From: Sulfurimonas hydrogeniphila
GTDB taxonomy: Bacteria > Campylobacterota > Campylobacteria > Campylobacterales > Sulfurimonadaceae
DNA length: 64,000 nt
Direction: 5' to 3'
Assembly (NCBI RefSeq): GCF_009068765.1
Contig: NZ_CP035534.1
Coordinates: 1,488,001 to 1,552,000 of the forward strand
Made by a program: the position numbers and the translations under genes. The stretch's first letter is position 1; every line of letters begins with the position of its first letter. The notes beneath the pieces are model-generated. The model had not been told where the DNA came from. It did no database searches and was given only the letters and a program-made list of their open reading frames with translations. Positions 10,675-59,358 of the stretch are shown here, in pieces.

Positions 10675-12183
10675 TTATTGCAAGCTGTCATCGTTTCTGT
10701 CTTGTTTTAATTTTTTTTTCAAAATAATTTTGCCGTTTTCAACACCGGGTTGATTGTAGGCATCAATATACATCAGTTTTGCACACAGGGAAGTCAACAG
10801 TTCATATTCATACATCAAAGCGGCAATGGCACTTTCACAAACACCGTCTATTGTTATCACATCACACGGGATGTCTTTTTGGCTGTTTATTGATTCTATC
10901 GTTGCATCCGCCTGTTTGTTTATCAATTCGGAAAAAGGAATATTATTAAGATATCGTAACTCTTCAAGCCCTTCCAGTTTTACATCCGGAATTTTCAAAT
11001 CATTGTCAAAATTTTCCACCTTGATGACAGTTACCGTTTTATCTCGTCTGCCTTCGATGATAAGCTGTAAAAACGAGTGCTGATCAATCGGACCGATAAT
11101 ACCGATAGGTGTCAATCCCTGACGTGTATTGTTTATATCAATTTTACCAAGACTTTCTCCCCAAAGCTGAATATACCACTTGTTGAAACCTTCAAGGCGT
11201 GAGGAGTAGGAAAAGACTACATTTATGTTGTAATTGTATTTGTATTCGACTAAAAATCGGGCTTTTTTTAAAAGGCGTTGTTTAATATTTATGCCATTGT
11301 CAGCCGGCACTGAAGTACCGGTTCCGGAGATATTACCTGTGTCATCTTTGTGGAGAGGCACTGAAGTAGCGGTTCCGGAGATATTACCTGCGTTATCGTT
11401 GTGGAGGGGAACTGAAGTAGCAGTTCCGGAGATATTGCCTGTGTCATCGTTGTGGAGGGGAACTGAAGTAGCAGTTCCGGAGATATTGCCTGTGTCATCG
11501 TTGTGGAGAGGCACTGAAGTAGCGGTTGCAGAGGTACCCTGGAACCCGTACTTCAGTGCGGGCTGCTCTTTATGAGTCCCAAAAAACTCATCATGTACTT
11601 TTCTCGCACCGGACAACAATGCATCTATGTCTATACCCACTATCGCCAAAGGTAGTAAACCGACTGCACAAAACACAGAAAAGCGTCCTCCCACATTTTT
11701 CGGAATCTCAAAAATCTTCATGCTGTGTATACGGGCATAATCACTTAATTTGGAATCGTTCTCACTGACAATCACGCTGTTTTCTCTGTTACATGTAACC
11801 AAAGAGTTTATATACTTAAACAATGCAATTGTTTCCAAAGTTGTCCCGGATTTTGAAATCACTATAAAAAGCGTATCTTCCAAATCAATATTTTCAATCT
11901 TGGACTTTATATCAATAGGGTCTGTAGTTTCAAGAAAAAAAAGTTTTTTCCTTAAATCTTTTGAGTGTTTTAAAAATTTATAAACAGCATAGGTACCAAG
12001 GGTACTTCCGCCGATACCGATAACGGCTATATTAGTTTGTTTCACTGTTTTGGCATACTCTTTATAAACAGATGTATCTTGAAGCGGCAGTGTATAATAG
12101 CCGATAGAGTTCTTTTCTTTTACAATTTCAGCAAAAACATCTTCATCTGAGATAGTCGGATTGAAATTATGACTATAGTTCAT
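10675..12183 (-). CDS. pgi: Glucose-6-phosphate isomerase with in-frame repeat insertion
   Basis: Pgi interconverts glucose-6-P and fructose-6-P. Family motifs are present: GIGGSTLGTYAVYKF, FIVISKSGTTLET, and WYIQLWGESLGK with GIIGPIDQHSFLQL. The protein is about 500 aa, roughly 100 longer than the compact epsilon-type enzymes. The excess is one block at about residues 209-297, encoded by a palindromic repeat whose left arm has expanded into 51-bp tandem copies. They are read as 17-residue repeats (SGTATSVPLHNDDTGNI). The ATG at 12183 overlaps the galU stop as ATGA and is chosen over the TTG at 12189. Whether the enzyme is active with this insert is unknown. Confidence 0.92.
   Translation of the reverse strand: MNYSHNFNPTISDEDVFAEIVKEKNSIGYYTLPLQDTSVYKEYAKTVKQTNIAVIGIGGSTLGTYAVYKFLKHSKDLRKKLFFLETTDPIDIKSKIENIDLEDTLFIVISKSGTTLETIALFKYINSLVTCNRENSVIVSENDSKLSDYARIHSMKIFEIPKNVGGRFSVFCAVGLLPLAIVGIDIDALLSGARKVHDEFFGTHKEQPALKYGFQGTSATATSVPLHNDDTGNISGTATSVPLHNDDTGNISGTATSVPLHNDNAGNISGTATSVPLHKDDTGNISGTGTSVPADNGINIKQRLLKKARFLVEYKYNYNINVVFSYSSRLEGFNKWYIQLWGESLGKIDINNTRQGLTPIGIIGPIDQHSFLQLIIEGRRDKTVTVIKVENFDNDLKIPDVKLEGLEELRYLNNIPFSELINKQADATIESINSQKDIPCDVITIDGVCESAIAALMYEYELLTSLCAKLMYIDAYNQPGVENGKIILKKKLKQDRNDDSLQ
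11301..11563. repeat. REP insertion with 51-bp tandem expansion inside pgi
   Basis: The left arm (11301-11325, core GGCACTGAAGTACCGG then TTCC) and right arm (11541-11563, GGAA then CCCGTACTTCAGTGCGGG) match the intergenic REP family. Between them ACTGAAGTA recurs at 11309, 11360, 11411, 11462 and 11513. The period is exactly 51 bp: one arm plus spacer. All copies keep the pgi frame open. Confidence 0.93.
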
Positions 12184-13130
12184 GAACAACTCTTGTTGTA
12201 AAAATAATTTGTAGCTGCAACAAAACCGTCTACACTGCCACAGTCAAAGCGTTTTCCTTGAAATTTATAGGCAATTACTCTGCCTTGTTTCGCCTGTTGC
12301 AGCAGTGCATCGGTTATTTGAATTTCTCCGCCTTTACCCGGTTTTGTTTCACGCAAAATATCGAATATATCCGGAGTAAGGATGTACCTGCCTATAATGG
12401 CCAGATTGGACGGAGCGTCCTGCGGGGATGGTTTTTCTACCATATCTGTAATTTTAAAAGCGTTATCGCCCAGACTAAAGTCTGGGTTCCGTATCTCACC
12501 TTCAATATCCTTGTCGCCTAGACTAATGTCTGGATTCCTTGTCTCACCTGCATCTGATTCATCTTCCCGGAACCCGTACTTCAGTGCGGGCTGCTCTTCT
12601 ATTGCTACTACACCGTATTTGTTAGTATCATCATAAGGTACTTCTTCGACAGCAACGATAGAGCACTTGTATTTTTCGTAAAGTTTTACCATCTGTGCCA
12701 AAACACCCGCACTCTCATTATCACACAAATCATCTGCTAGTATGACGGCAAAAGGTTCTTTTCCGATAAGAGTTTCACCTGTCAGTATGGCATGTCCAAG
12801 CCCTTTCATCTCAACTTGTCGCGTATAGGAAAAGGTGCAGGTTGTTATTACTTTTCTTATCTCTTGCAAATAACTCTCTTTTGCAGTACCTTTAATCTGA
12901 TGCTCGAGTTCATAAGAAACATCAAAGTGATCTTCAATTGCACGTTTCCCACGCCCCGTAACGATTGCCATAGTAGTAAGCCCCGCTTCTATTGCTTCTT
13001 CCACCCCGTATTGAAGAAGCGGTTTCGTAAGGACGGGGAGCATCTCTTTTGGTATCGCTTTTGTAGCCGGCAAAAATCTTGTTCCGTAGCCTGCCGCCGG
13101 AAAAAGACATTTTCTGATTGTTGTTTGCAA
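12180..13130 (-). CDS. galU: UTP-glucose-1-phosphate uridylyltransferase with in-frame repeat insertion
   Basis: GalU makes UDP-glucose for surface glycans. The N-terminus (CLFPAAGYGTRFLPATKA) is the nucleotidyltransferase motif, and VEKPSPQDAPSNLAIIGRY and GEIQITDALL are GalU signatures. The 316-aa product is about 40 residues longer than usual. The extra block, about residues 180-221, comes from REP arms and contains two 16-residue repeats (RNPDISLGD / RNPDFSLGD) and EQPALKYGF, the same peptide as in Pgi. The start is a TTG with AAAGGA upstream. It overlaps pgi by 4 bp. Confidence 0.93.
   Translation of the reverse strand: MQTTIRKCLFPAAGYGTRFLPATKAIPKEMLPVLTKPLLQYGVEEAIEAGLTTMAIVTGRGKRAIEDHFDVSYELEHQIKGTAKESYLQEIRKVITTCTFSYTRQVEMKGLGHAILTGETLIGKEPFAVILADDLCDNESAGVLAQMVKLYEKYKCSIVAVEEVPYDDTNKYGVVAIEEQPALKYGFREDESDAGETRNPDISLGDKDIEGEIRNPDFSLGDNAFKITDMVEKPSPQDAPSNLAIIGRYILTPDIFDILRETKPGKGGEIQITDALLQQAKQGRVIAYKFQGKRFDCGSVDGFVAATNYFYNKSCS
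12468..12591. repeat. REP insertion with 48-bp duplication inside galU
   Basis: Two left arms at 12468-12490 (hairpin CCCAGACTAAAGTCTGGG) and 12516-12538 (a degenerate copy) are spaced exactly 48 bp apart. They are followed by a right arm at 12569-12591 (GGAA, CCCGTACTTCAGTGCGGG). The galU frame stays open throughout. Confidence 0.9.
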
Positions 13131-13191
13131 GAGAATCCTTTGTTTTAATGAAATGATTATAGTAAACCTTTGATTATATTTACTTAAATTC

Positions 13192-13347
13192 AGCCCGTAC
13201 TGAAGTACGGGTTCCGAAAAAGCTGCACATCTCCAGGAATCAGTACTTTAATGCCGACTGTTGTTGCTTACTGTCACTCTCAGCCCACCCTAAAGGATGG
13301 GTTCCTAAATACTGAATACTTCCCGGAATCGGTACTTTAGTGCCGAC
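13192..13347. repeat. Two tandem REP doublets between galU and pglB
   Basis: Unit one (13192-13258) and unit two (13282-13347) each have a left arm ending in TTCC, a spacer of about 20 nt, and a right arm of GGAATC-GGTACTTTA type ending GCCGAC. Unit two has the variant left hairpin CCCACCCTAAAGGATGGG. The linker GTCACTCTC between the units recurs at other loci. Together with flanking bases they fill the 230-bp gap; no gene is seen. Confidence 0.92.
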
Positions 13348-13360
13348 TGTTCTTTAATTC

Positions 13361-15529
13361 TTATATTTTCAATTTATATACTTTAGCCTGTGGTGTTAAT
13401 ATCACAGGTTCAAAAAGTTTTTTATCATAATTTTCCAGCACCATCAGTTGTATATAGAGCGAATTATATGTCTGTTCATCCACTATTAAAAAAGTATTAT
13501 AGTTTTTCATAAAAATAATATTTAAATTTGAGGAAAGGTTGATAACCTGTACCTGTTTGTGTAGTTTCATATTTTTGTCATAGTAAGTTTGCACAAAACG
13601 TCTTATCGGCAATGTTTTATTTCCAAGAGTAAGCTGCAGAATTCTTTTGTCTAAAAATACATTTTGTGCCAATTGAATTTTGTTGCCAATATCTTTAAAA
13701 TTCCTGCTTACAAAGAAAAATGGCTGCCTGCCTTTGTCTCCGTTCATTAAATTCAAATTTGAGAAAAGTGTGACAGTCGGATAAATGTTTATCATTCTGA
13801 AAGGCAGATAAACGTAGATATCTCTTGTTTTTTTCGGCAGTTTAATATCAGACTGCAAACTCTTTAAAAATTCGTTTGTATCTTTGTATCCGTAATCTTT
13901 TGTCATCTGTTCGATATTTGAAAAAACTGTAATATTTTTGTCTTCTATCTCTTTCTTGTTTTTATCTCCAAAATCGTATGTTTTTTCCGTATACTCTACA
14001 TCAAGCCGTGCCATTTTTGCAGCCTCTTCCTGTGTGTGTGTCAGCATAAAACTCACAGGAAAATTCACGCTTCCACTGTGTTTTCCGCCATCGGCCAAAG
14101 TTTTGACATCTGCATAGTATCGAATTGGATAGCCATAGTCCCACCATGCTACAACATAATCTTCACGACTTGCTCTTTTTCCCAGGGTAGTTAAAACTTT
14201 CACTTCATTCGCATTAAAAACAGTAGGTACTTTATACGCCTCTATATGTTTATAGTTTGGATACAGTGCCAGCAGAGTAAAAGCACTCATGCTTAAAACT
14301 TTCAACTTCTGCGTAGGCATTTTTGAAGCAATCTGCGTAATTAAAAAGGCAATGCCGAAAGCTAAAATCGGTACGGCATAGATTGTAAAACGAAGTCCAC
14401 CGACATAGGCTAAAAATCCAAGCCCGACAAGAGGCAGTGAAAAGAGCATAATACGGTGTTTGTACAGTAAATAGATATAGCCAAACAAGGCAATCACAAA
14501 AGTAACAGTATTTCCACTGATACGATTAGCAAAAGTCTCAAAAGGAATATGCCCTGCTTCTCGTACCGTTTGTATTACCGTGAAAAAATGAAGTCCCAGT
14601 CCTTTGGTTCCCGCACTGACACTCTCTCTAAAAATATAGCCTTTTAACTGCGACCAAATCGGATCAAATCCACCGGTTGCAAAAAATGCAATAATTGAAG
14701 TCCCTAAGATATAGTAAATATACTTATCATATTTTTCCTGCTTAAATGTATAAAAAGCGGCTAAAACAAAACCCAGACGAACCAATCCGTCTGTATTCAT
14801 CATAGCAAACATCATAATGGCAAGCAGTTTATAATTAAATACATTTTTTCGATCAAACACCAAAGTATAAAAAAGAATCAATCCGAAAAATGAAAACTCC
14901 AAAGAGTAAGATTGAGGGTACCACCATCTGTAAACCAGAATATCCAAAGCAGTAAAGAGCAGATATATGTCTTTATTGGTTTTAATCGCCCAAATAACAG
15001 ACCAGAGCAAAAACATAGGAAGCACAATGTTGAGCATATCGGTATCATAATACCCTGCCATTGTACGGTTATAATAACTCCATGCAACAGATGCAAATAT
15101 TGCGGCAATAAACCCCATCTCAAGATTTTTCAGCGCTTTGGCTATCAAAATGATGGGAATAACGACAAGAGAACTCAAAAATACCGGTAAATAAAAAATA
15201 ACACTCTCAAAGGAAAAAGGCAGGATTTTTGCAAAGAATGCTGTAAGTTGGGAAGCAGCACTTGAAACAGGTGAGAGGTCATGCAACTGATGAAATTTAT
15301 CAAAATACTCTTTTGCATCCGGATTTGTTCCGGTTCCGGAAAGTAAATCACGAGCACCTTCCGCCCAAACATAACCATCATTGGTATTAATCATAAACTG
15401 CCCGTTAAAATAAAACGGTGCATATCCGTTAAAATGATATACCCAAACAAGGCGCATACCAATAGAAAAAGCAAAAGCTATAAAAATATAAAGAAGTGTT
15501 AATTTTGTTTCGTGGGAAGTATCTGTCAA
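13361..15529 (-). CDS. pglB: PglB/STT3-type oligosaccharyltransferase
   Basis: This integral membrane enzyme transfers a lipid-linked oligosaccharide to Asn in D/E-X-N-X-S/T sequons in the periplasm. The 722-aa length matches epsilon PglB. The N-terminal half is multi-spanning, with an acidic loop motif (INTNDGYVWAEGARDLL) and DTD in the second loop (YYDTDMLN). The catalytic WWDYGYP motif is near residue 460 at the start of the periplasmic domain. The start is a TTG. tRNA-Asn and pglF lie directly upstream, and galU lies downstream beyond a REP pair. Confidence 0.95.
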   Translation of the reverse strand: MTDTSHETKLTLLYIFIAFAFSIGMRLVWVYHFNGYAPFYFNGQFMINTNDGYVWAEGARDLLSGTGTNPDAKEYFDKFHQLHDLSPVSSAASQLTAFFAKILPFSFESVIFYLPVFLSSLVVIPIILIAKALKNLEMGFIAAIFASVAWSYYNRTMAGYYDTDMLNIVLPMFLLWSVIWAIKTNKDIYLLFTALDILVYRWWYPQSYSLEFSFFGLILFYTLVFDRKNVFNYKLLAIMMFAMMNTDGLVRLGFVLAAFYTFKQEKYDKYIYYILGTSIIAFFATGGFDPIWSQLKGYIFRESVSAGTKGLGLHFFTVIQTVREAGHIPFETFANRISGNTVTFVIALFGYIYLLYKHRIMLFSLPLVGLGFLAYVGGLRFTIYAVPILAFGIAFLITQIASKMPTQKLKVLSMSAFTLLALYPNYKHIEAYKVPTVFNANEVKVLTTLGKRASREDYVVAWWDYGYPIRYYADVKTLADGGKHSGSVNFPVSFMLTHTQEEAAKMARLDVEYTEKTYDFGDKNKKEIEDKNITVFSNIEQMTKDYGYKDTNEFLKSLQSDIKLPKKTRDIYVYLPFRMINIYPTVTLFSNLNLMNGDKGRQPFFFVSRNFKDIGNKIQLAQNVFLDKRILQLTLGNKTLPIRRFVQTYYDKNMKLHKQVQVINLSSNLNIIFMKNYNTFLIVDEQTYNSLYIQLMVLENYDKKLFEPVILTPQAKVYKLKI

Positions 15530-15574
15530 GTTTTAGTCCTCTAAAAAGTTGAGGAATTATAACATAAAAAGAAG

Positions 15575-15649
15575 TGGCTCCGGATACTGGATTCGAACCA
15601 GTGACCAAGTGATTAACAGTCACCTACTCTACCGCTGAGCTAATCCGGA
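15575..15649 (-). tRNA. tRNA-Asn (anticodon GTT)
   Basis: The minus strand reads TCCGGATTAGCTCAGCGG..., with anticodon loop CTGTTAA, T-arm GGTTCGAATCC and an encoded CCA end. The acceptor stem TCCGGAT/ATCCGGA is perfect. It sits between pglB and pglF. Confidence 0.97.
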
Positions 15650-15704
15650 ATGTATGGCAGAATTCTATCCAAACAATTTTAAAATAACCTAAAATTTTGA
15701 TAAT

Positions 15705-17435
15705 TTAGGAATTTGTTTGATGATTAAACTCCGGCACTATCTCTTTGAGTTTTTTCAGCGTATCATTACATGTAAGCAGTGCTTCTATATCTTCATTCAA
15801 TCTTTTCAAATCATACGGTGTAGGTTTTGCCACGGTTATGGATTCATATTCTGTTTTTGTGTCACTCTCGTCTATCAAAAGCTCTTCATAGAGTTTTTCA
15901 CCCGGTCGTAAACCTGTATATGTAATGTCAATGTTTTGACTTCCGCTCAGGTCAATCATTTTTTTTGCCAAATCAACTATCCTTATCGGTTCACCCATAT
16001 CAAGTATGAAAATCTCACCGCCGCTTCCTATAGCACCTGCCTGCAAAACCAGTTCACAGGCTTCGGGTATCAACATAAAATATCGTGTGATATCAGGATG
16101 TGTTACGGTAACAGGTCCGCCTGCTTCTATCTGTTTTTTAAATTTTGGAATAACACTTCCGCTAGAGCCTAAAACATTACCAAACCTCACAGCGACTATG
16201 TCTGTTCCCTGTCCATTTGAATTTTGGGCATACAGTTCGCAAATACGCTTAGTCGTTCCCATAACATTTGTAGGACGCACTGCCTTATCGGTAGATATCA
16301 TCACAAACTTTTGCACGCCATGCTTTATAGACGTATCTATAACATTTTTAGTGCCTATGACATTATTAACGATGCCTTCATATATGTTTGATTCAACAAG
16401 CGGTACATGTTTGTATGCTGCGGCATGTATAACTATCTGAGGTTTATACTTTTGAAATGTTTCATCTAAAAGTTTCGAATTTACTACACTTTGCATAACA
16501 GGAACAGCATCAACATTCTTAATCTCTTCCAAAATAGCATACAAATTGTATTCGCTGTGGTCTAAAAGTATAAGTTTTTTCGCTCCGTATTTTTCACATT
16601 GACGACATATTTCACTCCCGATACTCCCACCGGCACCCGTAACCAAAACAGTTTTGTCTTTTATGAATGCTTTTATCTTTTTTTTGTCCAAATCTTTTGG
16701 ATGGCGTGCAAGCAAATCTTCTACAGAGAGATCTTTTAACTGTGTCGAAAGATTTTTTCCCGTTAAAATTTCATCAATAGAAGGAAGAATCTGAATAACT
16801 TCAAAGTAATTTGAGAGATTGTCATATATCGTTCTGATACGCTCTTTTGGAACAGACGGCATGGCAATAACAAGCAAATCATACTTTTTATCTTTCATAA
16901 CTGTTTTGAGCTGTTGCTCAGAAAGTATATTTACAGAATCTACAGAACGGTTTTGCAAAGCCTTGTCATCATCCACAAAATATTCTATTTTATACTTAGA
17001 ATCATGAAACTCGGATGCCAGTTTTATTCCAGCCTTCCCTGCACCATAAATTACCACTGATTTTGTCTTCTTTACTTTTGATTTGTTGGTAAAATAATAG
17101 TATGCATACATCAAAAAATTAATGCTAAAAAGATATAAAAAAAGTTCTGATGCCAAAAAAGAAAAACGTACTTTTCCATAAAATACAGGCAAATAAACAA
17201 AAAAAGCAGCAATATAGACAACACTTTTTATAAGAAAAGTTTTTTGCGAAGCTTTCGACCAAGAGAGAGAGTAGTCTCGCAGTATAAAGCGTGATGCAAG
17301 CATACGAATGACGATGACGCTTGCCACAACCTCAAACTCAAACGGCATATGATAGATAAAAAATGTCCACCAAAACGTAATAAAAGAGAGTACTATAATT
17401 ACTAAAAAGTTTAATATTTTTTTATCTATTCGCAC
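15705..17435 (-). CDS. pglF: UDP-N-acetylglucosamine 4,6-dehydratase, membrane PglF type
   Basis: This enzyme starts the bacillosamine branch by converting UDP-GlcNAc to its 4-keto-6-deoxy form. The 576-aa protein has four N-terminal membrane segments (about residues 1-115), a CoA-binding-like Rossmann domain, and a second NAD domain with GAGGSIGSEICRQ near residue 265. STDKAVRPTNVMGTTKR is the catalytic-loop motif of the family. The start is a GTG. With pglB and the phosphoglycosyl transferase it suggests a protein N-glycosylation locus. No PglE or PglD is in the window. Confidence 0.93.
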   Translation of the reverse strand: MRIDKKILNFLVIIVLSFITFWWTFFIYHMPFEFEVVASVIVIRMLASRFILRDYSLSWSKASQKTFLIKSVVYIAAFFVYLPVFYGKVRFSFLASELFLYLFSINFLMYAYYYFTNKSKVKKTKSVVIYGAGKAGIKLASEFHDSKYKIEYFVDDDKALQNRSVDSVNILSEQQLKTVMKDKKYDLLVIAMPSVPKERIRTIYDNLSNYFEVIQILPSIDEILTGKNLSTQLKDLSVEDLLARHPKDLDKKKIKAFIKDKTVLVTGAGGSIGSEICRQCEKYGAKKLILLDHSEYNLYAILEEIKNVDAVPVMQSVVNSKLLDETFQKYKPQIVIHAAAYKHVPLVESNIYEGIVNNVIGTKNVIDTSIKHGVQKFVMISTDKAVRPTNVMGTTKRICELYAQNSNGQGTDIVAVRFGNVLGSSGSVIPKFKKQIEAGGPVTVTHPDITRYFMLIPEACELVLQAGAIGSGGEIFILDMGEPIRIVDLAKKMIDLSGSQNIDITYTGLRPGEKLYEELLIDESDTKTEYESITVAKPTPYDLKRLNEDIEALLTCNDTLKKLKEIVPEFNHQTNS

Positions 17436-17550
17436 TATTTATGATTCTCTGGATCTTTAAGTTTTAATACGCTCATACTATACTTTCCTCTCTTATTATA
17501 AACATCATTATAACACATTTGTAAACTCACAGTTTTCACTCCATATGTGC

Positions 17551-17684
17551 AGCGCACCATAAAGAGTGGGTTCCAAAAAACTGTACACATTCACAGAAAT
17601 CGGTACTTTCCTGGCATTCTCGCCCGCACTGAAGTACGGATTCCAAATGCAACAATTTCTCGGAATCGGTACTTCAGTGCCGAC
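17551..17684. repeat. REP doublets downstream of the WecA-like gene
   Basis: A worn unit (17551-17614) is followed by a good unit (17622-17684: GCCCGCACTGAAGTACGG ... GGAATC-GGTACTTCAGTGCC-GAC). The right arm enters the preceding gene on the minus strand and supplies its last codons and the TGA stop. Confidence 0.88.
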
Positions 17685-49983: not shown

Positions 49984-50138
49984 TGGAATCTGTACTTTCT
50001 ATGCTAAAACAAACTACAGAAAAAACTAAATTTTTTTCTGTAGTGCCGACTGTTGTTTTTGTCATGCCACTCCCAGCCCACCCTAAAGGATGGGTTCCAA
50101 AAACAATAGCTTCCCGGAATCGGTACTTCAGTGCCGAC
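49984..50138. repeat. REP doublet plus worn half-copy
   Basis: A complete unit at 50075-50138 has left hairpin CCCACCCTAAAGGATGGG, a 17-nt spacer, and right arm GGAATC-GGTACTTCAGTGCC-GAC. It is preceded by a decayed right arm (49984-50003) and the linker TGCCACTCCC. The rest of the 49919-50267 gap shows nothing else but the ComEA-gene leader. Confidence 0.87.
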
Positions 50139-50267
50139 TAACAATTCCAGGTTACAAAAATACCCATTACTATTAAAAGCACACACAATATTCTGACAAT
50201 TAACAATAAAATTAGCTAAATAATATTTTTTTATGTACACTGTATTCAAATCAAAAAAAGGATTTCC

Positions 50268-50516
50268 ATGAAATTTTTAGCTATATTAGCCATAAGTACT
50301 ACACTGCTTTTTAGTGCAGTAGATATAAACAATGCAAGTAAATCAGAGTTGACAACACTAAGCGGCATCGGTGCGAAAAAAGCTGAAGCAGTTTTAGCCT
50401 ACAGAACAAATCACTGTTTTAAAAATGTAGATGATTTAACAGCAGTCAAAGGTATAAGTACTAAAACTGTAGAAAAAAACAGAGCTAATTTAACAGTCGG
50501 AAAGTGTAAAAAATAA
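50268..50516 (+). CDS. ComEA-like secreted helix-hairpin-helix protein
   Basis: This 82-aa protein has a signal peptide (residues 1-17, MKFLAILAISTTLLFSA) and one tandem helix-hairpin-helix domain (VDINNASKSELTTLSGIG, KVDDLTAVKGIS region). ComEA-type proteins bind incoming DNA in the periplasm during transformation. AAAGGA sits before the ATG. Together with LigE it hints at natural competence. It is one of the few plus-strand genes. Confidence 0.87.
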   Translation: MKFLAILAISTTLLFSAVDINNASKSELTTLSGIGAKKAEAVLAYRTNHCFKNVDDLTAVKGISTKTVEKNRANLTVGKCKK

Positions 50517-50589
50517 CTTAATTCTTAGATTAAGAATATTGGCTAACAAACCATACAGTCTCAGCTGTTTGAACTTTTTTGCCACTCTC

Positions 50590-50646
50590 GCCCGCACTAA
50601 AAGTACGGGTTCCCAAATACTGTGGAATCGCTACTTTAGTGCCGAC
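50590..50646. repeat. Compact REP doublet
   Basis: The left arm GCCCGCACTAAAAGTACGGG-TTCC, a 10-nt spacer and the right arm ending GCCGAC are all present. The repeat's last base is also the first base, on the plus strand, of the Uma2 gene's stop codon complement. Confidence 0.85.
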
Positions 50647-51194
50647 TATTTCCAAATTTTACTAAAATCAAACGGCAGTTCTTTGTTGCATTCATCAATT
50701 TTAAATGTCACAATCCCATCGCTAATATCACACATTTTTATATATTTGCCATTTTGAAGCTGGTACACTTTTGCATTTTCTTCTTGAGGATCAACCATGA
50801 TGTAGTAGTTCACACCCTCTTTTTCATACAAATCATATTTTACGCCTCTGTCTTTTTTGGCAGTTGCCTTGGACAATACTTCAAAAATAATTTTTGGCGC
50901 CTGTGTAATATAAGCATCATTTTTGGGTTCATGGCATATCACACTGTTGTCTGGCTGAACAACAGTATCTTCTGCAATTTTCCAATCAACAGGAAGCAAA
51001 ACCTGACATTTTGGACAGTCTTGAAAAATACTTTTCAATTCCCATCCAATATTATTACTTATTTTCTGATGTTTAATCATAGGAGCAGGAGACATAGCGT
51101 ACGGATACCCAGCTATCAGTTCCCACTTTCCATCCCATAATTTATAATCATCATACGTATATCGTGGTATTTCTTCTACTTTTAAAGCACCCAT
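50646..51194 (-). CDS. Uma2 family endonuclease
   Basis: This 182-aa protein has the PD-(D/E)XK fold of the Uma2/DUF820 family: VLLPVDWKIAEDTVVQPDNSVIC carries the catalytic aspartate, and KIIFEVLSKATAKKDRGVKYDLY the E-x-K element. The biological role of these nucleases is not known; they are often expanded beside mobile or repeat DNA. A decayed second copy of its C-terminal part lies at 51.8-52.0 kb. The stop abuts a REP. Confidence 0.87.
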   Translation of the reverse strand: MGALKVEEIPRYTYDDYKLWDGKWELIAGYPYAMSPAPMIKHQKISNNIGWELKSIFQDCPKCQVLLPVDWKIAEDTVVQPDNSVICHEPKNDAYITQAPKIIFEVLSKATAKKDRGVKYDLYEKEGVNYYIMVDPQEENAKVYQLQNGKYIKMCDISDGIVTFKIDECNKELPFDFSKIWK

Positions 51195-51292
51195 AATAAA
51201 TCCTTGTAAAATTATTGTTCATTATAACAAAGTTTTACTTTTTATTTGAATGAGATATTGATAATATTTATTTTGTAATGATGTTCATGAGG

Positions 51293-51368
51293 TGGTGGCC
51301 TGTCTCGGAATCGAACCAAGGACACAGTGATTTTCAGTCACTTGCTCTACCGACTGAGCTAACAGGCC
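51293..51368 (-). tRNA. tRNA-Phe (anticodon GAA)
   Basis: The minus strand reads GGCCTGTTAGCTCAGTCGG..., with anticodon loop CTGAAAA, T-arm GGTTCGATTCC and an encoded CCA. The acceptor stem GGCCTGT/ACAGGCC is perfect. Confidence 0.97.
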
Positions 51369-51582
51369 TTTGTGAAAGAGTTGGAATTATAGTCATACTT
51401 AACTGAATAGTTGCTTAGTATGAAGCTCTTCAGCGGTTTTTTTCTTTTTTCTTTGTCCCAACAGCTTTTGTATAGTTTTTTTAAAACAATATTTCTGTAT
51501 TTATCCAGATCTTTTGTAAATACACACTGGCATTATCTTCTACATATTTACCGTTGCTTACCAACTTTCTTGCTACTATCTC

Positions 51583-51690
51583 AGCCTACCCTGCAGGATG
51601 TGACATTCGGAATCGCTACTTTCTATATTAAAACATGACTTGTGAGAAAAAAACTTGATGTTTTCTTGGAACCTAGGTTTTAACCTAGGC
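51583..51690. repeat. Decayed REP copy and a variant hairpin arm
   Basis: A worn doublet (51583-51626) is followed by a fifth type of arm at 51668-51690: GGAA, then the perfect hairpin CCTAGGTTTTAACCTAGG, then C. The layout (4-nt foot, 18-nt hairpin) equals that of the other arms but the stem sequence differs. The remaining part of the gap 51369-51582 shows no gene. Confidence 0.65.
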
Positions 51691-51710
51691 TTTAATCTTG
51701 AAAAACACAA

Positions 51711-51820
51711 AGCCCGCACTGAAGTACGGGTTCCGAAAAAGCCGCTTAACTTAATGGCATTGCCTAAAGGATAGATTCCAAAAACTGCACATCTCTCGGA
51801 ATCGGTACTTCAGTGCCGAC
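51711..51820. repeat. REP composite with three arms
   Basis: The left arm AGCCCGCACTGAAGTACGGG-TTCC is followed by a spacer, a worn second left arm (GCCTAAAGGATAGATTCC) and a right arm ending GCCGAC at 51820. The first arm with its spacer is repeated in inverted orientation near 59.4 kb. Confidence 0.85.
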
Positions 51821-52774: not shown

Positions 52775-54184
52775 CATAAGTATCTACACAACTCAAAAAA
52801 GCAAAGAAAGCGGAATAGATATTGCATAAGATTTTAAAAAACAAGAGAGTTTATGCAATGGAAGAGCGTTTAAAAAAAAAGATATATGAGACTGGTAAAA
52901 AGTCATATGAATCATAAACAACACAGTACCAATGGATTAAACCTGCTACAAAAGACTGAAGGATTTTCACAAGCACAAAGTGCTTGGAGATTTTACAATA
53001 ATGAGCATGTAGATATAGAGTCACTCAATGAGCCAATGCTTACAAGAGGGATTAAAACTATTAATAAAAGCAGTGATGAATATATACTTGTAGCCCATGA
53101 CTGGTCACTCATAAATTATAAAAACCATACGGCAAAAACAGATTGTATACGAAAACGCAGAAGCAATGTAAATAATGCTTCATCAAGAGGATATGAGTTG
53201 CAAAGTTCCCTTGCAATTGAGAGCAGCAGCGGCAAACCAATCCTTCCCTTGGTACAGAACCTAAAGACACAAGATAAAGTGCTCTCAAGCTATAATCCTA
53301 CAATGAAGAGTCATCTTACCCATCTCGGTGAATTAACACAAAGAATAGCTTATATCAATCAATCCCTCAACATACAAAAGAAAATTGTACATGTAATTGA
53401 CAGAGAAGCAGACAGTGCGGGGTTTTTCAGAGGACTGCAAAAAGAGGATTTATATATAGTACGAGCATTAGACAATGTCAAAGTCAGGTATGAAGATGAA
53501 GATATTACCCAAAAAGAGTTGTCCAAAAAAATGGATAAAGGCAAATATGTAAAAACTATACAGTATCAAAATAAAAAAGTAAAAATTTATGTTAATACGG
53601 TAGATATACTTATAACAAGAGACAGCTATCAAAAGACAGATACGCCACAAGGTAAAACAATAAAACAAAAAGTAAAAGGCAAGCCAATAAAAAACAGATT
53701 TATAGTCCAAAGACTCATAGATGAGAAGAACAATACAGTTGCTACCTGGCTTCTGTTAAGCAATCTTCCAAAAGATGTTGATATAACAAGGATAGGATTG
53801 TGGTATTATTACAGATGGAATATAGAAACGTATTTTAAACTGTTAAAAAGCTCAGGGTTTAATTTGGAAAAATGGCAGCAAGAGAGTGCACAGGCTATAT
53901 TTAAACGCTTGTTTGTTGCCTCTTATGCCTGTTTGCTTGTATGGGAAATTGAACATACAAATAGTAAAAACATGCTGGCAATTAGAAAGTTTTTAGTTCG
54001 ATTAAGCGGGAGATTGGTAGCAAGAAAGAAGATATCTACCTCTCCGGCTCTGTTAGCAGGTTTATGGAACTTCTTCTCTGCTATGGATATGCTTGAACTT
54101 TATGATATTGAAGAACTCCATAGCATTAAAAAAGAACTCAATGACTTTATGCAGATGGAGTTTTAAGTTGTGTAGATACTTATG
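52775..54184 (+). mobile_element. IS4-family insertion sequence (IS50/ISPepr1-like)
   Basis: The element is 1410 bp with perfect 19-bp terminal inverted repeats (CATAAGTATCTACACAACT and its complement) and an 8-bp target duplication, ACTGAAGT. It carries one transposase gene. It interrupts a REP hairpin exactly inside the stem, so it arrived after the REP. Confidence 0.95.
52858..54166 (+). CDS. IS4-family DDE transposase (frameshift near start)
   Basis: DDE residues are visible (numbering from the ATG at 52886): D72 in VAHDWSLINY, D172 in VIDREADSAGF, and E314 in YYYRWNIETYFKLLKSSG, the Y-(2)-R-(3)-E-(6)-K signature. The long frame starts at 52886, but the N-terminal MEERLKK begins at 52858 in another frame. 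A one-base change in the A9 run (52872-52880) would join them as RLKKRYMRLVK, as in related transposases. It is either inactive, made by slippage, or a sequence error. Confidence 0.88.
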
Positions 54185-54248: not shown

Positions 54249-55286
54249 TTACCAGACCTTTATCTCATTATACACACTGTCACGCTCAACAGGAATAAAG
54301 CCAGAATTTGTTATCAATCCCGTAAATTCTTTCACATCCACCCCATTGGCACTCGCGGCTCCTGCTGCAGAGTTGATGGACTCTTTTTCTATCGTCCCAT
54401 CCAAATCATTTGCCCCGAATTCCTGTGCGACAAGTGCAAGATTCACAGTCGATGTCACCCAGTACGCTTTTAAATTCGGCACATTGTCAAGAACCAGCCT
54501 TGCAATGGCATAGGTTTTGAGTATTTCATTTGCCGTAATCGGTTTGTCAATATTAAGGTAATTATTTTCTGTCTGATAGACAAGCGGTATAAAAGCGTTA
54601 AACCCACCCGTTATATCTTGCAACTCACGAATTCGCATCATATGATCTATACGGTTTGCACGAGATTCTACATGTCCAAAAAGCATAGTAACATTAGATT
54701 TTTTCCCGCGTTCATGCCATTTACGATGAATTTCAAACCATTGATCTGATGTCACTTTGCCTTTACAGATGTAATCTCTGACCTTTTCATCAAAAATCTC
54801 CGCACCGCCGCCGGGCATAGAATCTACACCGTTTTCTACCATCAAATCAAGCACTTCATCATATGTAAGTCCATGATGACGAGACAAGAAGTCCACTTCT
54901 GCAGCAGTCAATGCCTTTACATGTAAGGCTGGATACTTCTCTTTGATTTTTTTAAAAATACCCAAATACCAATCGAGCGTTACATTAGGATTATGGGCAG
55001 AAACTATGTGAACCTCTTTTGCATCATGTGCCACTATGTTGTCGACTATATTCATAATTTCTTCATGGCTCATTGTATACTGGTTAGGATTTTTGCGTGT
55101 TGCCGAATAGGCGCAAAATTTACAAACATCTGCACAGACGTTTGTAGGGTTTATATGCCGGTTAATATTAAAATATGTCTTTTTACCGTGTAATTCCTGA
55201 CGCTTTGCATCGGCAAGTTCACCAAGTTCAAAAAGGTCTCTTTCATAAAGTTTTATTGCATCTTCAAAATTTATTCTGTTATTCAT
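54249..55286 (-). CDS. mqnE: Aminofutalosine synthase (radical SAM)
   Basis: MqnE adds the adenosyl radical to the enolpyruvyl-benzoate intermediate in the futalosine menaquinone pathway. The radical SAM cluster motif CADVCKFCAY is near residue 55, and MPGGGAEIFDEKVRDYI and FGHVESRANRIDHMMRIR are family segments. The ATG at 55286 (345 aa) starts MNNRINFEDAIKLYERDLF, the expected N-terminus. The frame stays open 72 codons further only because REP DNA lacks stops there. It is flanked by REPs on both sides. Confidence 0.94.
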   Translation of the reverse strand: MNNRINFEDAIKLYERDLFELGELADAKRQELHGKKTYFNINRHINPTNVCADVCKFCAYSATRKNPNQYTMSHEEIMNIVDNIVAHDAKEVHIVSAHNPNVTLDWYLGIFKKIKEKYPALHVKALTAAEVDFLSRHHGLTYDEVLDLMVENGVDSMPGGGAEIFDEKVRDYICKGKVTSDQWFEIHRKWHERGKKSNVTMLFGHVESRANRIDHMMRIRELQDITGGFNAFIPLVYQTENNYLNIDKPITANEILKTYAIARLVLDNVPNLKAYWVTSTVNLALVAQEFGANDLDGTIEKESINSAAGAASANGVDVKEFTGLITNSGFIPVERDSVYNEIKVW

Positions 55287-55314
55287 TCTTTTACCTGTTT
55301 TTTTAGCGCTTGCA

Positions 55315-55446
55315 GCCCACTCCAAGAATGGCTCCGGAATCGGTACTTCAGTGCCGACTGTTACTACTTTTTTGTCACTCCCGCCCACCCTAAAGGATGG
55401 GTTCCGAAAAATAATGACTCCTCGGAATCGGTACTTCAGTGCCGAC
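55315..55446. repeat. Two REP doublets between lsrK and mqnE
   Basis: In unit one (55315-55358) the worn left arm directly touches the right arm, with no spacer. In unit two (55383-55446) the hairpin is CCCACCCTAAAGGATGGG, with an 18-nt spacer and a right arm. The linker TTTTTTGTCACTCCC lies between them. They fill the gap to lsrK. Confidence 0.9.
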
Positions 55447-55455
55447 TTTACTTCT

Positions 55456-57018
55456 TTAAAGTCCGGGGGCTTTCCACATTGAAGTCGTGATATTATCATC
55501 AACTAGCTTTAATTGCACTTCATACGCTTTTTGCCATCTTTCTTTTAACTTTGCATAAACTTCTTTATTCTTCTCGTTGGGCATATATTTTTTATCCCAG
55601 ACCACCAACTCTTTTGCCGCTTCTGCTAAACTTTTATAAACACCGACACCTACACCTGCTGCCATTGCCGCACCAAGTGCGGTTGCCTCGGTCACTTTTG
55701 GAATCTTCACCACACAGCCCGTTACATCCGCTAGAATCTGTGCCCACAGTTTTCCTTTGCTTGCCCCGCCTGCAAAGACAATCTCTTTTATTTTTATACC
55801 GCTGAATACCTCTATATTTTGCAAATTAATGCTTGAAACAATGGCAGCATTTTCCTCCAAACTCCGAAACATTGAGATATGATTATATTTCTCGGCATCA
55901 AGTCCGAGATTTAAAAAACTCGGCGCGGCATGGTACCACTTGCCGTATTTCATCACATCTGAAAATATCGGTAAAATATCATAAGAACCTGCGGGAATTT
56001 TCTGTGCTTTTTCTTCTAAAACTTCATAAACATCTTTACCACACAGACTTGCCTCTTCTTTTTCCGTCTGACAAAAAGCGTCGCGAAACCAGCGCATAAC
56101 AAGCCCAGAAAAAAATGTTATGCCCTCCGCCTGAGAAAGCCCTTCTATAACATGCGGATTGACGCGTATACTCATATCTTTTGGTGGTTTGACACTGCTT
56201 GGAATATTGACCACCTGTTGCCAAAAACTTCCACCCAAAATTGCCACATCACCCTCTTTGACAACCCCGAGTCCGGCAGAACCAAGTTGCACATCTCCTC
56301 CGCCCATCACAACTTTCGTCAAGGGGCTCAATCCTGTTTCATCTGCAACTTTTTCACTTACATTGCCAAGAATCGTTCCCGTTTCCAGCACAGGAGGAAA
56401 TATCTCCTCTTTTATACCGACTTTTTGTGCCATCTCTTTTTCCCAGCTGCGCGAAGCAAGAGAAAAAATTCCTGTAGTGCCGCCGTTACTTGGGTCAACG
56501 GCTATTACTCCGCTCAAACGTGCCAAAATCCAATCACCTATCATAGAAATATTTGCCACTTTTTCATAGATTTTTGGTCTCTTGTTTTTAAGCCACAGCA
56601 AACGGGGCAAAGCGCCAAGAGCAAAGGTCTGTCCGCTTTTTTGGTAAAACTCTTCTTCGATTTCAGGAAATTTTTCTTTTAAATATTTTACTTCTTTTGA
56701 AGCACGGGCATCAACATTAGCAACGCCCCAGAGTTCCTTGCCGTTCTTGTCATACAGGACAATTCCCTCACGCATACTTGTAGCACTGAGTGCCAAAATA
56801 TCTGCAGGATTAATCTTTGATTTTGCAATAACATTTTTGATACAGTTACATGTAAGCAGCCAGTTCTTTTCAAAATCAAAAGCCATGGAGTTTGCTACAC
56901 CCTCTTCTTCTAAATGTGTCCATTCTTTTTGCTCTGCGGCAATTTGCTTCCCCTGCGTATCAAAAAGTACAGCACGAATACTTCCTGTACCTGCATCTAT
57001 TGCTAAAAGATATGCCAT
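55456..57018 (-). CDS. lsrK: Autoinducer-2 kinase (FGGY family)
   Basis: The 520-aa product resembles enterobacterial LsrK along its whole length: LLAIDAGTGSIRAVLFDTQG (N-terminal phosphate site), SMREGIVLY, VDPSNGGTTG, GGGDVQLG, ALEENAAIVS, FAGGASKGKLW, and even the end TTSMWKAPGL. LsrK phosphorylates AI-2 (DPD) in the cytoplasm. The ATG at 57018 has AAAAGGA upstream. No LsrACDB transporter or LsrR is in the window, but an LsrG-like gene and an aldolase lie upstream on the same strand. Confidence 0.92.
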   Translation of the reverse strand: MAYLLAIDAGTGSIRAVLFDTQGKQIAAEQKEWTHLEEEGVANSMAFDFEKNWLLTCNCIKNVIAKSKINPADILALSATSMREGIVLYDKNGKELWGVANVDARASKEVKYLKEKFPEIEEEFYQKSGQTFALGALPRLLWLKNKRPKIYEKVANISMIGDWILARLSGVIAVDPSNGGTTGIFSLASRSWEKEMAQKVGIKEEIFPPVLETGTILGNVSEKVADETGLSPLTKVVMGGGDVQLGSAGLGVVKEGDVAILGGSFWQQVVNIPSSVKPPKDMSIRVNPHVIEGLSQAEGITFFSGLVMRWFRDAFCQTEKEEASLCGKDVYEVLEEKAQKIPAGSYDILPIFSDVMKYGKWYHAAPSFLNLGLDAEKYNHISMFRSLEENAAIVSSINLQNIEVFSGIKIKEIVFAGGASKGKLWAQILADVTGCVVKIPKVTEATALGAAMAAGVGVGVYKSLAEAAKELVVWDKKYMPNEKNKEVYAKLKERWQKAYEVQLKLVDDNITTSMWKAPGL

Positions 57019-57052
57019 ATTTTTCCTTTTCATTAACTTTCCTACCACGCTT

Positions 57053-57203
57053 GCCCGCACTGAAGTACGGGTTCCAAAATGCAGTGACTCCTCGGAATCG
57101 GTACTTCAGTGCCGACTCTTTGAACTTTTTTGCCGCTCCCACCCACCCTAAAGGATAGGTTCCAGAATGCAGTGACTCCCGGAATCGGTACTTCAGTGCC
57201 GAC
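57053..57203. repeat. Two REP doublets at the 3' side of the RAYT gene
   Basis: Unit one (57053-57116) and unit two (57141-57203) have near-identical spacers containing AATGCAGTGACTCC and share the linker TTTTTTGCCGCTCCC. Unit two ends 5 bp from the RAYT stop codon. Confidence 0.92.
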
Positions 57204-57208
57204 TTTTG

Positions 57209-57718
57209 TTACTCATATTTACTAAAAACCCGCTCATCTGTGAGTCCGGCTTTGAGAGGGTTATTTTTTATGTAATTATAAACTTTTACATAATGTTCTT
57301 CATCTCTTATAAGTTTGTCATAATACCCGTCTGCCCAAAATTTTCCTGATTTTTGCAAAAGTCTATTGAGTTCAACCGCACTTTTACCTTTGATATATTG
57401 CATAATTTTACCTAAATCCTCATTTTGCTTGAATAACAAATGAATATGATTTGGCATAACTGCCATCATTTCCACATCATAAAGTTTTTCGTCTTCTTCT
57501 AAAATAACATCTACAAAGACATCAATAGCTTCATCAAACAGATAGGCACCATTTTTTGACATGTCCAAATAACTGTCTATTTGAAACTGTTTTATATGTT
57601 CTTTTTCATCATTTGCCAGAATTTTTTGTACATAAGCATCTACGCTGTCTTGTGTACGAAATGTTATAAATTGGTAATGTTCTTTCAGACTGATATGATG
57701 CAGTTTTGTGTGGTTCAT
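57209..57718 (-). CDS. REP-associated tyrosine transposase (RAYT, TnpA-REP)
   Basis: This 169-aa Y1-type HUH enzyme has the metal-binding H91-I-H93 in AVMPNHIHLLF and the probable nucleophile Y149 in VYNYIKNNPLKAGL; KFWADGYYDKLIRDE precedes it. RAYTs cut and join single-stranded REP hairpins in known systems. Here REP doublets flank the gene on both sides within 5-80 bp, and the same arms are spread over the window. It interrupts the lsr-like gene set. The frame is intact, so the system may be active. Confidence 0.93.
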   Translation of the reverse strand: MNHTKLHHISLKEHYQFITFRTQDSVDAYVQKILANDEKEHIKQFQIDSYLDMSKNGAYLFDEAIDVFVDVILEEDEKLYDVEMMAVMPNHIHLLFKQNEDLGKIMQYIKGKSAVELNRLLQKSGKFWADGYYDKLIRDEEHYVKVYNYIKNNPLKAGLTDERVFSKYE

Positions 57719-57758
57719 TTTTTATTGTAAAGCCCTCTTTAAATTTTTACTCAGTTTA

Positions 57759-57887
57759 GCCCGCACTGAAGTACGGGTTCCGAAATTTCCCGGAATCGGT
57801 ACTTTAGTGCCGACTGCTGTTACTTTCTTGCCACTCTCGCCCGCACTGAAGTACGGGTTCCGGGATAAATTACACTTTCGTGCCGCC
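57759..57887. repeat. Two REP doublets at the 5' side of the RAYT gene
   Basis: Unit one (57759-57814) is complete with a 10-nt spacer. Unit two (57839-57887) has an intact left arm but a worn right arm (ACTTTCGTGCCGCC). The linker TTACTTTCTTGCCACTCTC joins them. The unit ends just before the aldolase stop. Confidence 0.9.
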
Positions 57888-57891
57888 TTTG

Positions 57892-59067
57892 TTACTTTTT
57901 CAGTTTCGCCTGTTCCAGTTCCCAGTACTCCATCGCAAAGCTCTCTTTTTCACTGATGCTTTGGTAGCCGCCTAATTTGTCTGAGCGCAATACTGCCAAC
58001 ATGGTATGGTTTACTATATCATTGATAATTGCCGCTTCTTTTCTGTTTTTTCCAAAAGAGATGACTGCGAGATTTTTTATAATCATATAATTGGGGGCAG
58101 GATTCAGCATCACCTCATCAGTGGCATATTTTTCAAAATAGGTTTTATACTCTTGCATATATTTTTCTACTGCTGCTTCCAAATTTGTATCTTCCATCAC
58201 AAGCGGTACTCTTTTTGTGCGTATGATATGCTCAGGAGTCAAGACACCGCGTGATGCAAACTCTTTTAAATTCGGCTGTGACGCATAATATGCTGCCAAA
58301 GGCGACTGATTGATATTGATAGAGACTTCATAGCCTTTCGCGGCAGAAAGTACCTTTGTTATTTTTCCGATATCACAGTCACTGTGGACATAATTATGTT
58401 CAATATGCACAACAGCCTGTTCGTCCAAAAAATTTTCTGCTTTTGTGACGGCTTCTATCATTTTGTCATAAGATTTTTTGGCATCATTGTCGAAAGTAAA
58501 AATCCCGTGATGATGCAAAATGATGCCGTCTATACTCTCCCAGTCCAAATCTTTTGTCATTTTATAAATTGTATGTGCCAGTTCAAAGCCCGGCATAATA
58601 TAATCAACAATTAAAAAATTTGGAAAAAGCTTGACAATATGCTCATCCCCGTTCACTGAATTTGAAATCGTTACAATAGCATCCGCATGGGTATGGTCCA
58701 CAAATTTGTAGGGAATCAGCGCATGCAGTATCGCTTCCACCGAAGGATTCGGCGCAGATTTATCCGTCATCGCCTCTCGTTGCAGGTGTACCATTTCACT
58801 GTCACTCAAATGCTCACGTTTTGCCATTTCTAAAAGTACATCCAGTTTCACAGGTGCAAAACCTTCTGCTTCTATGCTTGCCAAGTCCCAGCCACTTCCC
58901 TTTACATGTAAGACATCTTCGCCGTTTATTTTGCTTTTGAGTGAGGTATTGCCGCCTCCGTGCAGTACCAGTTCATCATTTTGTCCCAACAGGTTTGAGC
59001 TGTATACCCTCAAATCCAAATCACTTTTACATGCAGCCGCTTTTTTTTCATTCCATAAATTGTCCAT
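57892..59067 (-). CDS. Class II aldolase/adducin family protein (RhaD N-terminal-like)
   Basis: This 391-aa protein has LVLHGGGNTSLKSKING (substrate-phosphate loop), VDHTHADAIVTISNSV (two zinc histidines), and ILHHHGIFTFDNDA (third and fourth). It matches the aldolase domain of long rhamnulose-phosphate aldolase/dehydrogenase proteins but lacks the dehydrogenase half. It starts 3 bp after the LsrG-like gene. Between lsrG-like and lsrK it may cleave a phosphorylated DPD or 5-deoxy-pentose product. This is inferred. Confidence 0.87.
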   Translation of the reverse strand: MDNLWNEKKAAACKSDLDLRVYSSNLLGQNDELVLHGGGNTSLKSKINGEDVLHVKGSGWDLASIEAEGFAPVKLDVLLEMAKREHLSDSEMVHLQREAMTDKSAPNPSVEAILHALIPYKFVDHTHADAIVTISNSVNGDEHIVKLFPNFLIVDYIMPGFELAHTIYKMTKDLDWESIDGIILHHHGIFTFDNDAKKSYDKMIEAVTKAENFLDEQAVVHIEHNYVHSDCDIGKITKVLSAAKGYEVSININQSPLAAYYASQPNLKEFASRGVLTPEHIIRTKRVPLVMEDTNLEAAVEKYMQEYKTYFEKYATDEVMLNPAPNYMIIKNLAVISFGKNRKEAAIINDIVNHTMLAVLRSDKLGGYQSISEKESFAMEYWELEQAKLKK

Positions 59068-59070
59068 GAT

Positions 59071-59358
59071 TTAGCCCAACACTTCTAATTCATCTGTGTA
59101 TTTGTCTTCACAGTATGGCTCGTATGAAGATTTATATACTTTATAATGGGCAGAGGCTTTATGCCCGTTCAGTGCAGCTTCATTTTCCCAGGTCTCAACT
59201 GCCATAAATCTTTTTTTATCGTTTTTGTATTGAAATATTTCATAAAAAATACAGCCTTTTTCTGCCTTGCTCGGTGCTACCATTGCAGACAGCAGTTCTT
59301 TCATTTTTTCTTCACAGCCCTCTTTTGCTATGAATGTTACGCTTTTTGTAATTGTCAT
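59071..59358 (-). CDS. LsrG-like antibiotic-biosynthesis-monooxygenase-domain protein
   Basis: This 95-aa ABM-fold protein has SVTFIAKEGCEEKMKELL, EKGCIFYEIFQYKNDKKRF, and WENEAALNGHKASAHYKVY, where the HxxxxHY element matches LsrG-type enzymes that isomerise phospho-AI-2. GGGAAAA precedes the ATG. It is first of the set lsrG-like, aldolase, (RAYT), lsrK. A generic quinol monooxygenase is the alternative. Confidence 0.75.
   Translation of the reverse strand: MTITKSVTFIAKEGCEEKMKELLSAMVAPSKAEKGCIFYEIFQYKNDKKRFMAVETWENEAALNGHKASAHYKVYKSSYEPYCEDKYTDELEVLG

Follow-up and report, generated by a model that had tools for sequence, protein, structure and literature searches.

The genome of Sulfurimonas hydrogeniphila, a marine bacterium that oxidizes sulfur, likely encodes an Lsr-type system for processing autoinducer-2 (AI-2) that operates without recognizable import, LsrR, or LsrF, and in which a class II aldolase is the terminal enzyme. 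The system lies within a 64,000-nucleotide stretch of DNA (the window; positions 1,488,001 to 1,552,000 of contig NZ_CP035534.1 in assembly GCF_009068765.1). On the minus strand, it comprises an LsrG-like ABM-domain protein of 95 amino acids (59071 to 59358), a short class II metal-dependent aldolase of 391 amino acids (57892 to 59067), and LsrK, the AI-2 kinase, of 520 amino acids (55456 to 57018), in that order. Just three bases separate the first two genes. A preliminary description of this DNA had proposed the same set, and open reading frames and profile searches confirmed all three genes. We consider it probable that the set is an intracellular module for disposing of 4,5-dihydroxy-2,3-pentanedione (DPD, or AI-2), which the cell itself makes as a by-product of LuxS, and for recycling its carbon, with the aldolase replacing LsrF. 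We infer the substrates, the order of the reactions, the products, and the self-made origin of DPD. The genome is of the Sulfurimonas type, with 2,342,011 bases (2.34 Mb) in one contig, and the nearest named loci are from Sulfurimonas records.

LsrK scores 875.2 bits against the NCBIfam equivalog for AI-2 kinase (NF008187), which has a cut-off of 528, and its best match in PDB is LsrK from Escherichia coli (5ya0, 627 bits). The two proteins are 55% identical from residue 2 through the last residue, so the match to the enterobacterial enzyme does extend over the full length, as had been claimed. Five active-site residues that have been discussed for E. coli LsrK (T21, S23, R93, Q278, and F312; PMC8016206, PMC8028047) are all identical in the protein from the window, and each is kept in 117 to 119 of 119 LsrK sequences.

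The usual partners of LsrK seem to be missing from this complete, single-contig genome, which agrees with the preliminary description on the transporter, LsrR, and LsrF. No protein in the genome has the fold of LsrB (PF13407) or belongs to the LsrR family (PF04198); both control searches were positive in E. coli. There is also no member of PRK08227 (LsrF): the only DeoC-family protein is an aldolase of the PRK06852 type, which scores 55.9 for LsrF (cut-off, 297). Compared with the Lsr system of E. coli and Salmonella (lsrRK and lsrACDBFG), the window genome shares a full-length LsrK with the same active-site residues and an LsrG-like ABM protein, but a class II aldolase takes the place of the LsrF thiolase. 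A further difference is that no import route is known in this genome, which itself carries luxS (contig C1, 242276 to 242728, about 1.3 Mb from the set).

The aldolase matches PF00596 (67.5 bits) and PRK08324.2-5 (470 bits over positions 1 to 410 of the 583 in the profile). The match ends before the C-terminal short-chain dehydrogenase (SDR) domain of PRK08324. The residues that align to the glutamate and the three histidines of the class II metal-binding and catalytic site (E111, H125, H127, and H187) are invariant. In the predicted structure, which has a mean confidence score (pLDDT) of 91, residues 1 to 215 match class II aldolases: the Z score was 31 for 3m4r and about 17 for FucA and DrdA, and the matches include 6btd and 6btg (DrdA with dihydroxyacetone phosphate [DHAP]). 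Over this matched part, the fold and the catalytic residues are those of DHAP-dependent class II aldolases. Bifunctional rhamnulose-1-phosphate aldolases of the RhaE type (PRK08324) have in common with it the aldolase domain at the N terminus as well as the portion of the C-terminal region that precedes the SDR domain. The aldolase from the window differs from them in that it lacks the SDR domain, has E111 where RhaE from Rhizobium etli has aspartate, and has no rhamnose genes nearby. We rejected a role in ordinary rhamnose or fucose catabolism: neither an isomerase nor a sugar transporter lies close by, and the RhaE of R. etli, which is rhamnose-linked, shares only 27% identity with it and sits on a very long branch. 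We also looked for an aldehyde dehydrogenase near unlinked aldolases, which would suggest an aldehyde product; among the candidate neighbors of 400 to 520 amino acids, none resembled one.

We surveyed 199 genomes of the order, drawn from many families (genomes are labeled G and loci L; G000 is the window genome). LsrK was found in 46 of them and the aldolase in 45; 42 genomes have both. Put another way, the aldolase is present in 42 of the 46 genomes with LsrK and in 3 of the 153 others (Fisher P of about 1e-34). The genes are also arranged alike: enough upstream sequence was available for 57 named loci, of which 32 show the order LsrG-aldolase-LsrK, and in 27 of these 32, the gap between the aldolase and LsrK is under 300 bp. 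This order recurs in records from Sulfurimonas, Sulfurovum, Sulfurospirillum, and Arcobacter, so the linkage is conserved in relatives. Genes of the S-adenosylmethionine (SAM) cycle recur near the set as well: metK in 22 loci, where it is often next to LsrK, and MtnK and MtnA in a few.

The ABM protein matches the Pfam family (PF03992, 55.7 bits) and is 27% identical to E. coli LsrG over 70 amino acids. It is present in 37 of the 46 genomes with LsrK and in 2 of the 153 others. A small cupin (123 amino acids) adjoins LsrK in a subset of the loci. The cupin was found in 14 of the 199 genomes, and 13 of these have LsrK. Seven of the nine genomes that have LsrK without LsrG have the cupin (P = 0.0009). 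Deinococcus psychrotolerans also has LsrK followed by a cupin, which is 47% identical to that of Campylobacterota (the two cupins lie at L139:2433-2801 and L192:11563-11961). The cupin may replace LsrG in several relatives.

The aldolase family also occurs in lsr operons of Alphaproteobacteria. In Sinorhizobium meliloti, which we reached by searching plasmids for both the aldolase and LsrK, a class II aldolase of 416 amino acids comes after lsrA-lsrC-lsrD-lsrB and a relative of LsrG after lsrK. More broadly, in all nine of the alphaproteobacterial lsr operons that we examined, an aldolase of the same family (413 to 419 amino acids) follows lsrB, which is the slot of LsrF in E. coli, and a relative of LsrG follows lsrK. 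(The operons are from S. meliloti, Paracoccus, Thalassospira, Alloyangia, Ensifer, Rhizobium WL3, Roseateles XES5, Tritonibacter, and Shinella; the record for Roseateles XES5 is labeled as a betaproteobacterium and marked as unverified, and its operon resembles the rhizobial ones.) LsrB from these operons is 73 to 80% identical to E. coli LsrB. An operon of Lacticaseibacillus carries LsrF instead of a class II aldolase. What the alphaproteobacterial operons share with the window is LsrK, LsrG, and a short aldolase from one family (36 to 39% identity); unlike it, they keep LsrACDB and LsrR, and S. meliloti has no luxS (PMC3386761). Their aldolases form one clade, next to a long form of the family that is linked to mtnA in Ruegeria, and apart from the clade of Campylobacterota. 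Because the two clades lie apart, AI-2 operons of the two phyla seem to have gained the family independently. A literature search limited to open-access papers found none that discusses a class II aldolase in place of LsrF, which partly fits the earlier impression that the set is undescribed. Even so, the set occurs widely among Campylobacterota, and public records of alphaproteobacterial lsr operons already annotate the class II aldolase, though without remarking on it.

LsrG and LsrF are reported to convert phospho-DPD (P-DPD) to DHAP and acetyl-CoA, with LsrF acting as a thiolase (reviewed in PMC8016206). In the pathway that we propose, LsrK would phosphorylate DPD and so trap it in the cell as P-DPD. 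The LsrG-like protein, a candidate P-DPD isomerase, would convert P-DPD to P-HPD (3-hydroxy-5-phosphonooxypentane-2,4-dione or its hydrate), and the aldolase would cut the C2-C3 bond of P-HPD to give DHAP and a two-carbon unit. Class II aldolases stabilize the enediolate of DHAP, and P-HPD has a ketone at the position where an aldol substrate has a hydroxyl. Given this ketone, cleavage through the hydrate of P-HPD would yield acetate and DHAP. With a metal-dependent enzyme that does not use CoA, acetate would be the most natural two-carbon product, formed by retro-Claisen cleavage of the hydrated ketone, with the metal stabilizing the enediolate of DHAP just as it does in ordinary class II aldolases. 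Other possible routes are the transfer of an acetyl group and a reduction that precedes aldol cleavage to acetaldehyde. In a cell with neither an Lsr importer nor LsrR, AI-2 would be handled as waste, not as an imported signal.

Several observations weigh against this proposal. The LsrG label is weaker than that of LsrK: the ABM protein scores 28.9 bits against the LsrG equivalog (NF007791), below the cut-off of 135, and within PDB, it is closer to a generic ABM protein. Because it misses this cut-off, we call it LsrG-like only; its ABM domain and its linkage to LsrK do hold up. No phylogenetic correction was applied to the counts of co-occurrence. As for co-occurrence with luxS, which the preliminary description had proposed as a check, G136 has luxS directly beside the aldolase, LsrG, and LsrK, and G169 has it near these genes, but both genomes are from one genus, and linkage is known from that genus only. 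Although luxS is present in the window genome and in 45 of the 46 genomes with LsrK, almost every genome of the order has it (185 of 199), which makes its presence alongside LsrK uninformative (P = 0.2). No uptake system was found, but LsrA, LsrC, and LsrD were not searched for separately across the genome, and import of AI-2 by another transporter is possible. Finally, the sequence cannot tell acetate, acetyl-CoA, and acetaldehyde apart as the cleavage product.

If AI-2 does enter by another transporter, then the same chemistry might act on AI-2 from other cells, either as food or for quorum quenching. Some AI-2 does enter E. coli without Lsr, and import that depends on the phosphotransferase system has been reviewed (PMC3386761). 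A PF13407 binding protein is present in 16 of the 46 genomes with LsrK, and the LsrACDB importer is present in the relatives from Alphaproteobacteria that share the aldolase. However, PF13407 is absent from the window genome, no E. coli-type LsrB was found in the 199 genomes of the order (a search that had no positive control), no conserved transporter gene adjoins the set, and luxS is in the same cell. Overall, scavenging of foreign AI-2 seems unlikely. We give hardly any weight to the idea that some regulator besides LsrR still reads P-AI-2 or its products and that the set mainly tunes this internal signal. The enteric LsrG and LsrF do lower P-AI-2, which shuts the signal down (PMC8016206), but the genome has no protein of the LsrR family, and no conserved regulator gene lies beside the set.

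The preliminary description had also suggested that the substrates might be 5-deoxypentoses that arise from SAM. In such a salvage pathway for 5-deoxyribose or 5-methylthioribose, LsrK would phosphorylate the ketose, and the aldolase would split 5-deoxyribulose 1-phosphate to DHAP and acetaldehyde. The known pathways of this kind, 5-deoxyribose salvage and the DHAP shunt (DrdK-DrdI-DrdA or MtnK-MtnA-Ald2), also combine a kinase, an isomerase, and a class II aldolase that gives DHAP (for the aldolase of the DHAP shunt, see PMC6079011); the aldolase fold is similar, and metK is near the set in many loci. But the kinase in the window is of the FGGY family, not MtnK, and it lies far above the cut-off for AI-2 kinase; an ABM protein stands where MtnA would be. 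Neither the MtnK/DrdK kinase (TIGR01767) nor the MtnA/DrdI isomerase has a match in the window genome, while the isomerase is found in G114, G180, G158, and G140.

A longer form of the aldolase bears on this question. Some genomes with LsrK but no short aldolase (G114, G180, and G158) carry an aldolase-SDR fusion of 653 amino acids directly after MtnK and MtnA, and MtnK and MtnA are both absent from genomes with the short aldolase, such as G000, G016, G076, G125, G147, and G102. In the aldolase tree, whose root is unsure due to long branches, the long forms group in one clade, and the short forms linked to LsrK and LsrG in another (98*); a third group, of short aldolases, includes the ones linked to luxS. 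Both the pairing with MtnK and MtnA and the clades favor a role in AI-2 processing for the short form and in 5-deoxypentose salvage for the long form. The long form possibly serves both roles where it stands alone. Since the long form pairs with MtnK and MtnA in genomes that also keep LsrK, and the short forms are a clade of their own, salvage of SAM by-products by the set in the window seems very improbable. Disposal of self-made AI-2 is the part of the early suggestion that stands, given the presence of luxS, the lack of any uptake system found, the conserved gene order, and the same-family aldolase in the LsrF slot of lsr operons.

The fusion directly follows MtnK and MtnA in three loci of Campylobacterota and mtnA in Ruegeria. 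It is likely a bifunctional version of the DHAP shunt aldolase.

The preliminary description had left out an insertion between the aldolase and LsrK. A REP-associated tyrosine transposase (RAYT) of the IS200-like type lies on the minus strand at 57209 to 57718; it scores 42.9 bits for PF01797 and 74.8 bits for REP_Tyr_transpos (cut-off, 80). Palindromes that resemble repetitive extragenic palindromes (REPs) flank it, in the interval next to the aldolase (57720 to 57890, with CCCGTACTTCAGTGCGGGC-type matches at 57759 and 57839 and CACTGAAGTACCGATTCCGRG-type matches at 57789 and 57844) and in the interval next to LsrK (57040 to 57205, with matches at 57053, 57091, and 57178). Similar palindromes lie at 55333 to 55441, 50113 to 51815, and 11303 to 17679. 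Across the window, the CCCGTACTTCAGTGCGGGC and CACTGAAGTACCGATTCCGRG types have 10 and 13 matches, respectively, with some sites matching both, and none are expected by chance. Sister genomes lack the transposase at this site: in G016 and G076, the genes for the aldolase and LsrK are about 100 bp apart or overlap. Because the two genes are contiguous there, the transposase and the repeats look like a later, secondary insertion. The GTG start codon at 57060 falls inside a repeat; LsrK likely starts at the ATG at 57018 to 57016. No known regulatory RNA (Rfam) was matched near the gene set. Elsewhere in the window, two open reading frames that resemble glucose-6-phosphate isomerase (10675 to 12189) and UTP-glucose-1-phosphate uridylyltransferase (12180 to 13130) seem to bear the same repeats in frame; their peptides contain PALKYGF and a threefold stretch of the type ATSVPLHND.TGNISG, like the palindromic elements of Rickettsia.

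Downstream of the set is mqnE (aminofutalosine synthase; minus strand, 54249 to 55292; 632 bits for NF006276), which the preliminary description had hinted was linked to it. We set mqnE aside: its position, together with glnD and glmS, reflects synteny that is common to Sulfurimonas-type genomes, and it is not adjacent in most loci from Sulfurospirillum, Sulfurovum, or Arcobacter. An IS4-type transposase (52886 to 54166) adjoins mqnE, and an interrupted copy of the same transposase (L071:3102-4004) lies immediately upstream of this genome's luxS.

It has long been disputed whether AI-2 serves as a signal or is just a waste product of LuxS. A module that degrades AI-2 in cells without a recognizable importer or LsrR would provide a clear-cut natural example of AI-2 being handled metabolically, and the question of signal versus waste would become testable by removing two or three genes. 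A wider idea, which we offer tentatively as possible rather than probable, is that LsrF-free breakdown of AI-2 is a separate and widespread type of pathway: a class II aldolase, gained independently by the AI-2 operons of Campylobacterota and of Alphaproteobacteria, would convert P-HPD to acetate and DHAP by a CoA-free retro-Claisen reaction, a small cupin would replace LsrG in several Campylobacterota and perhaps in Deinococcus, and such bacteria with LuxS would consume AI-2 within the cell without importing it. The module that we propose for the window also predicts that a class II aldolase does the job of LsrF in the lsr operon of S. meliloti, an organism tractable enough for this to be checked. 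If our proposal is true, then AI-2 in these bacteria would be a waste product to be recycled and not a message.

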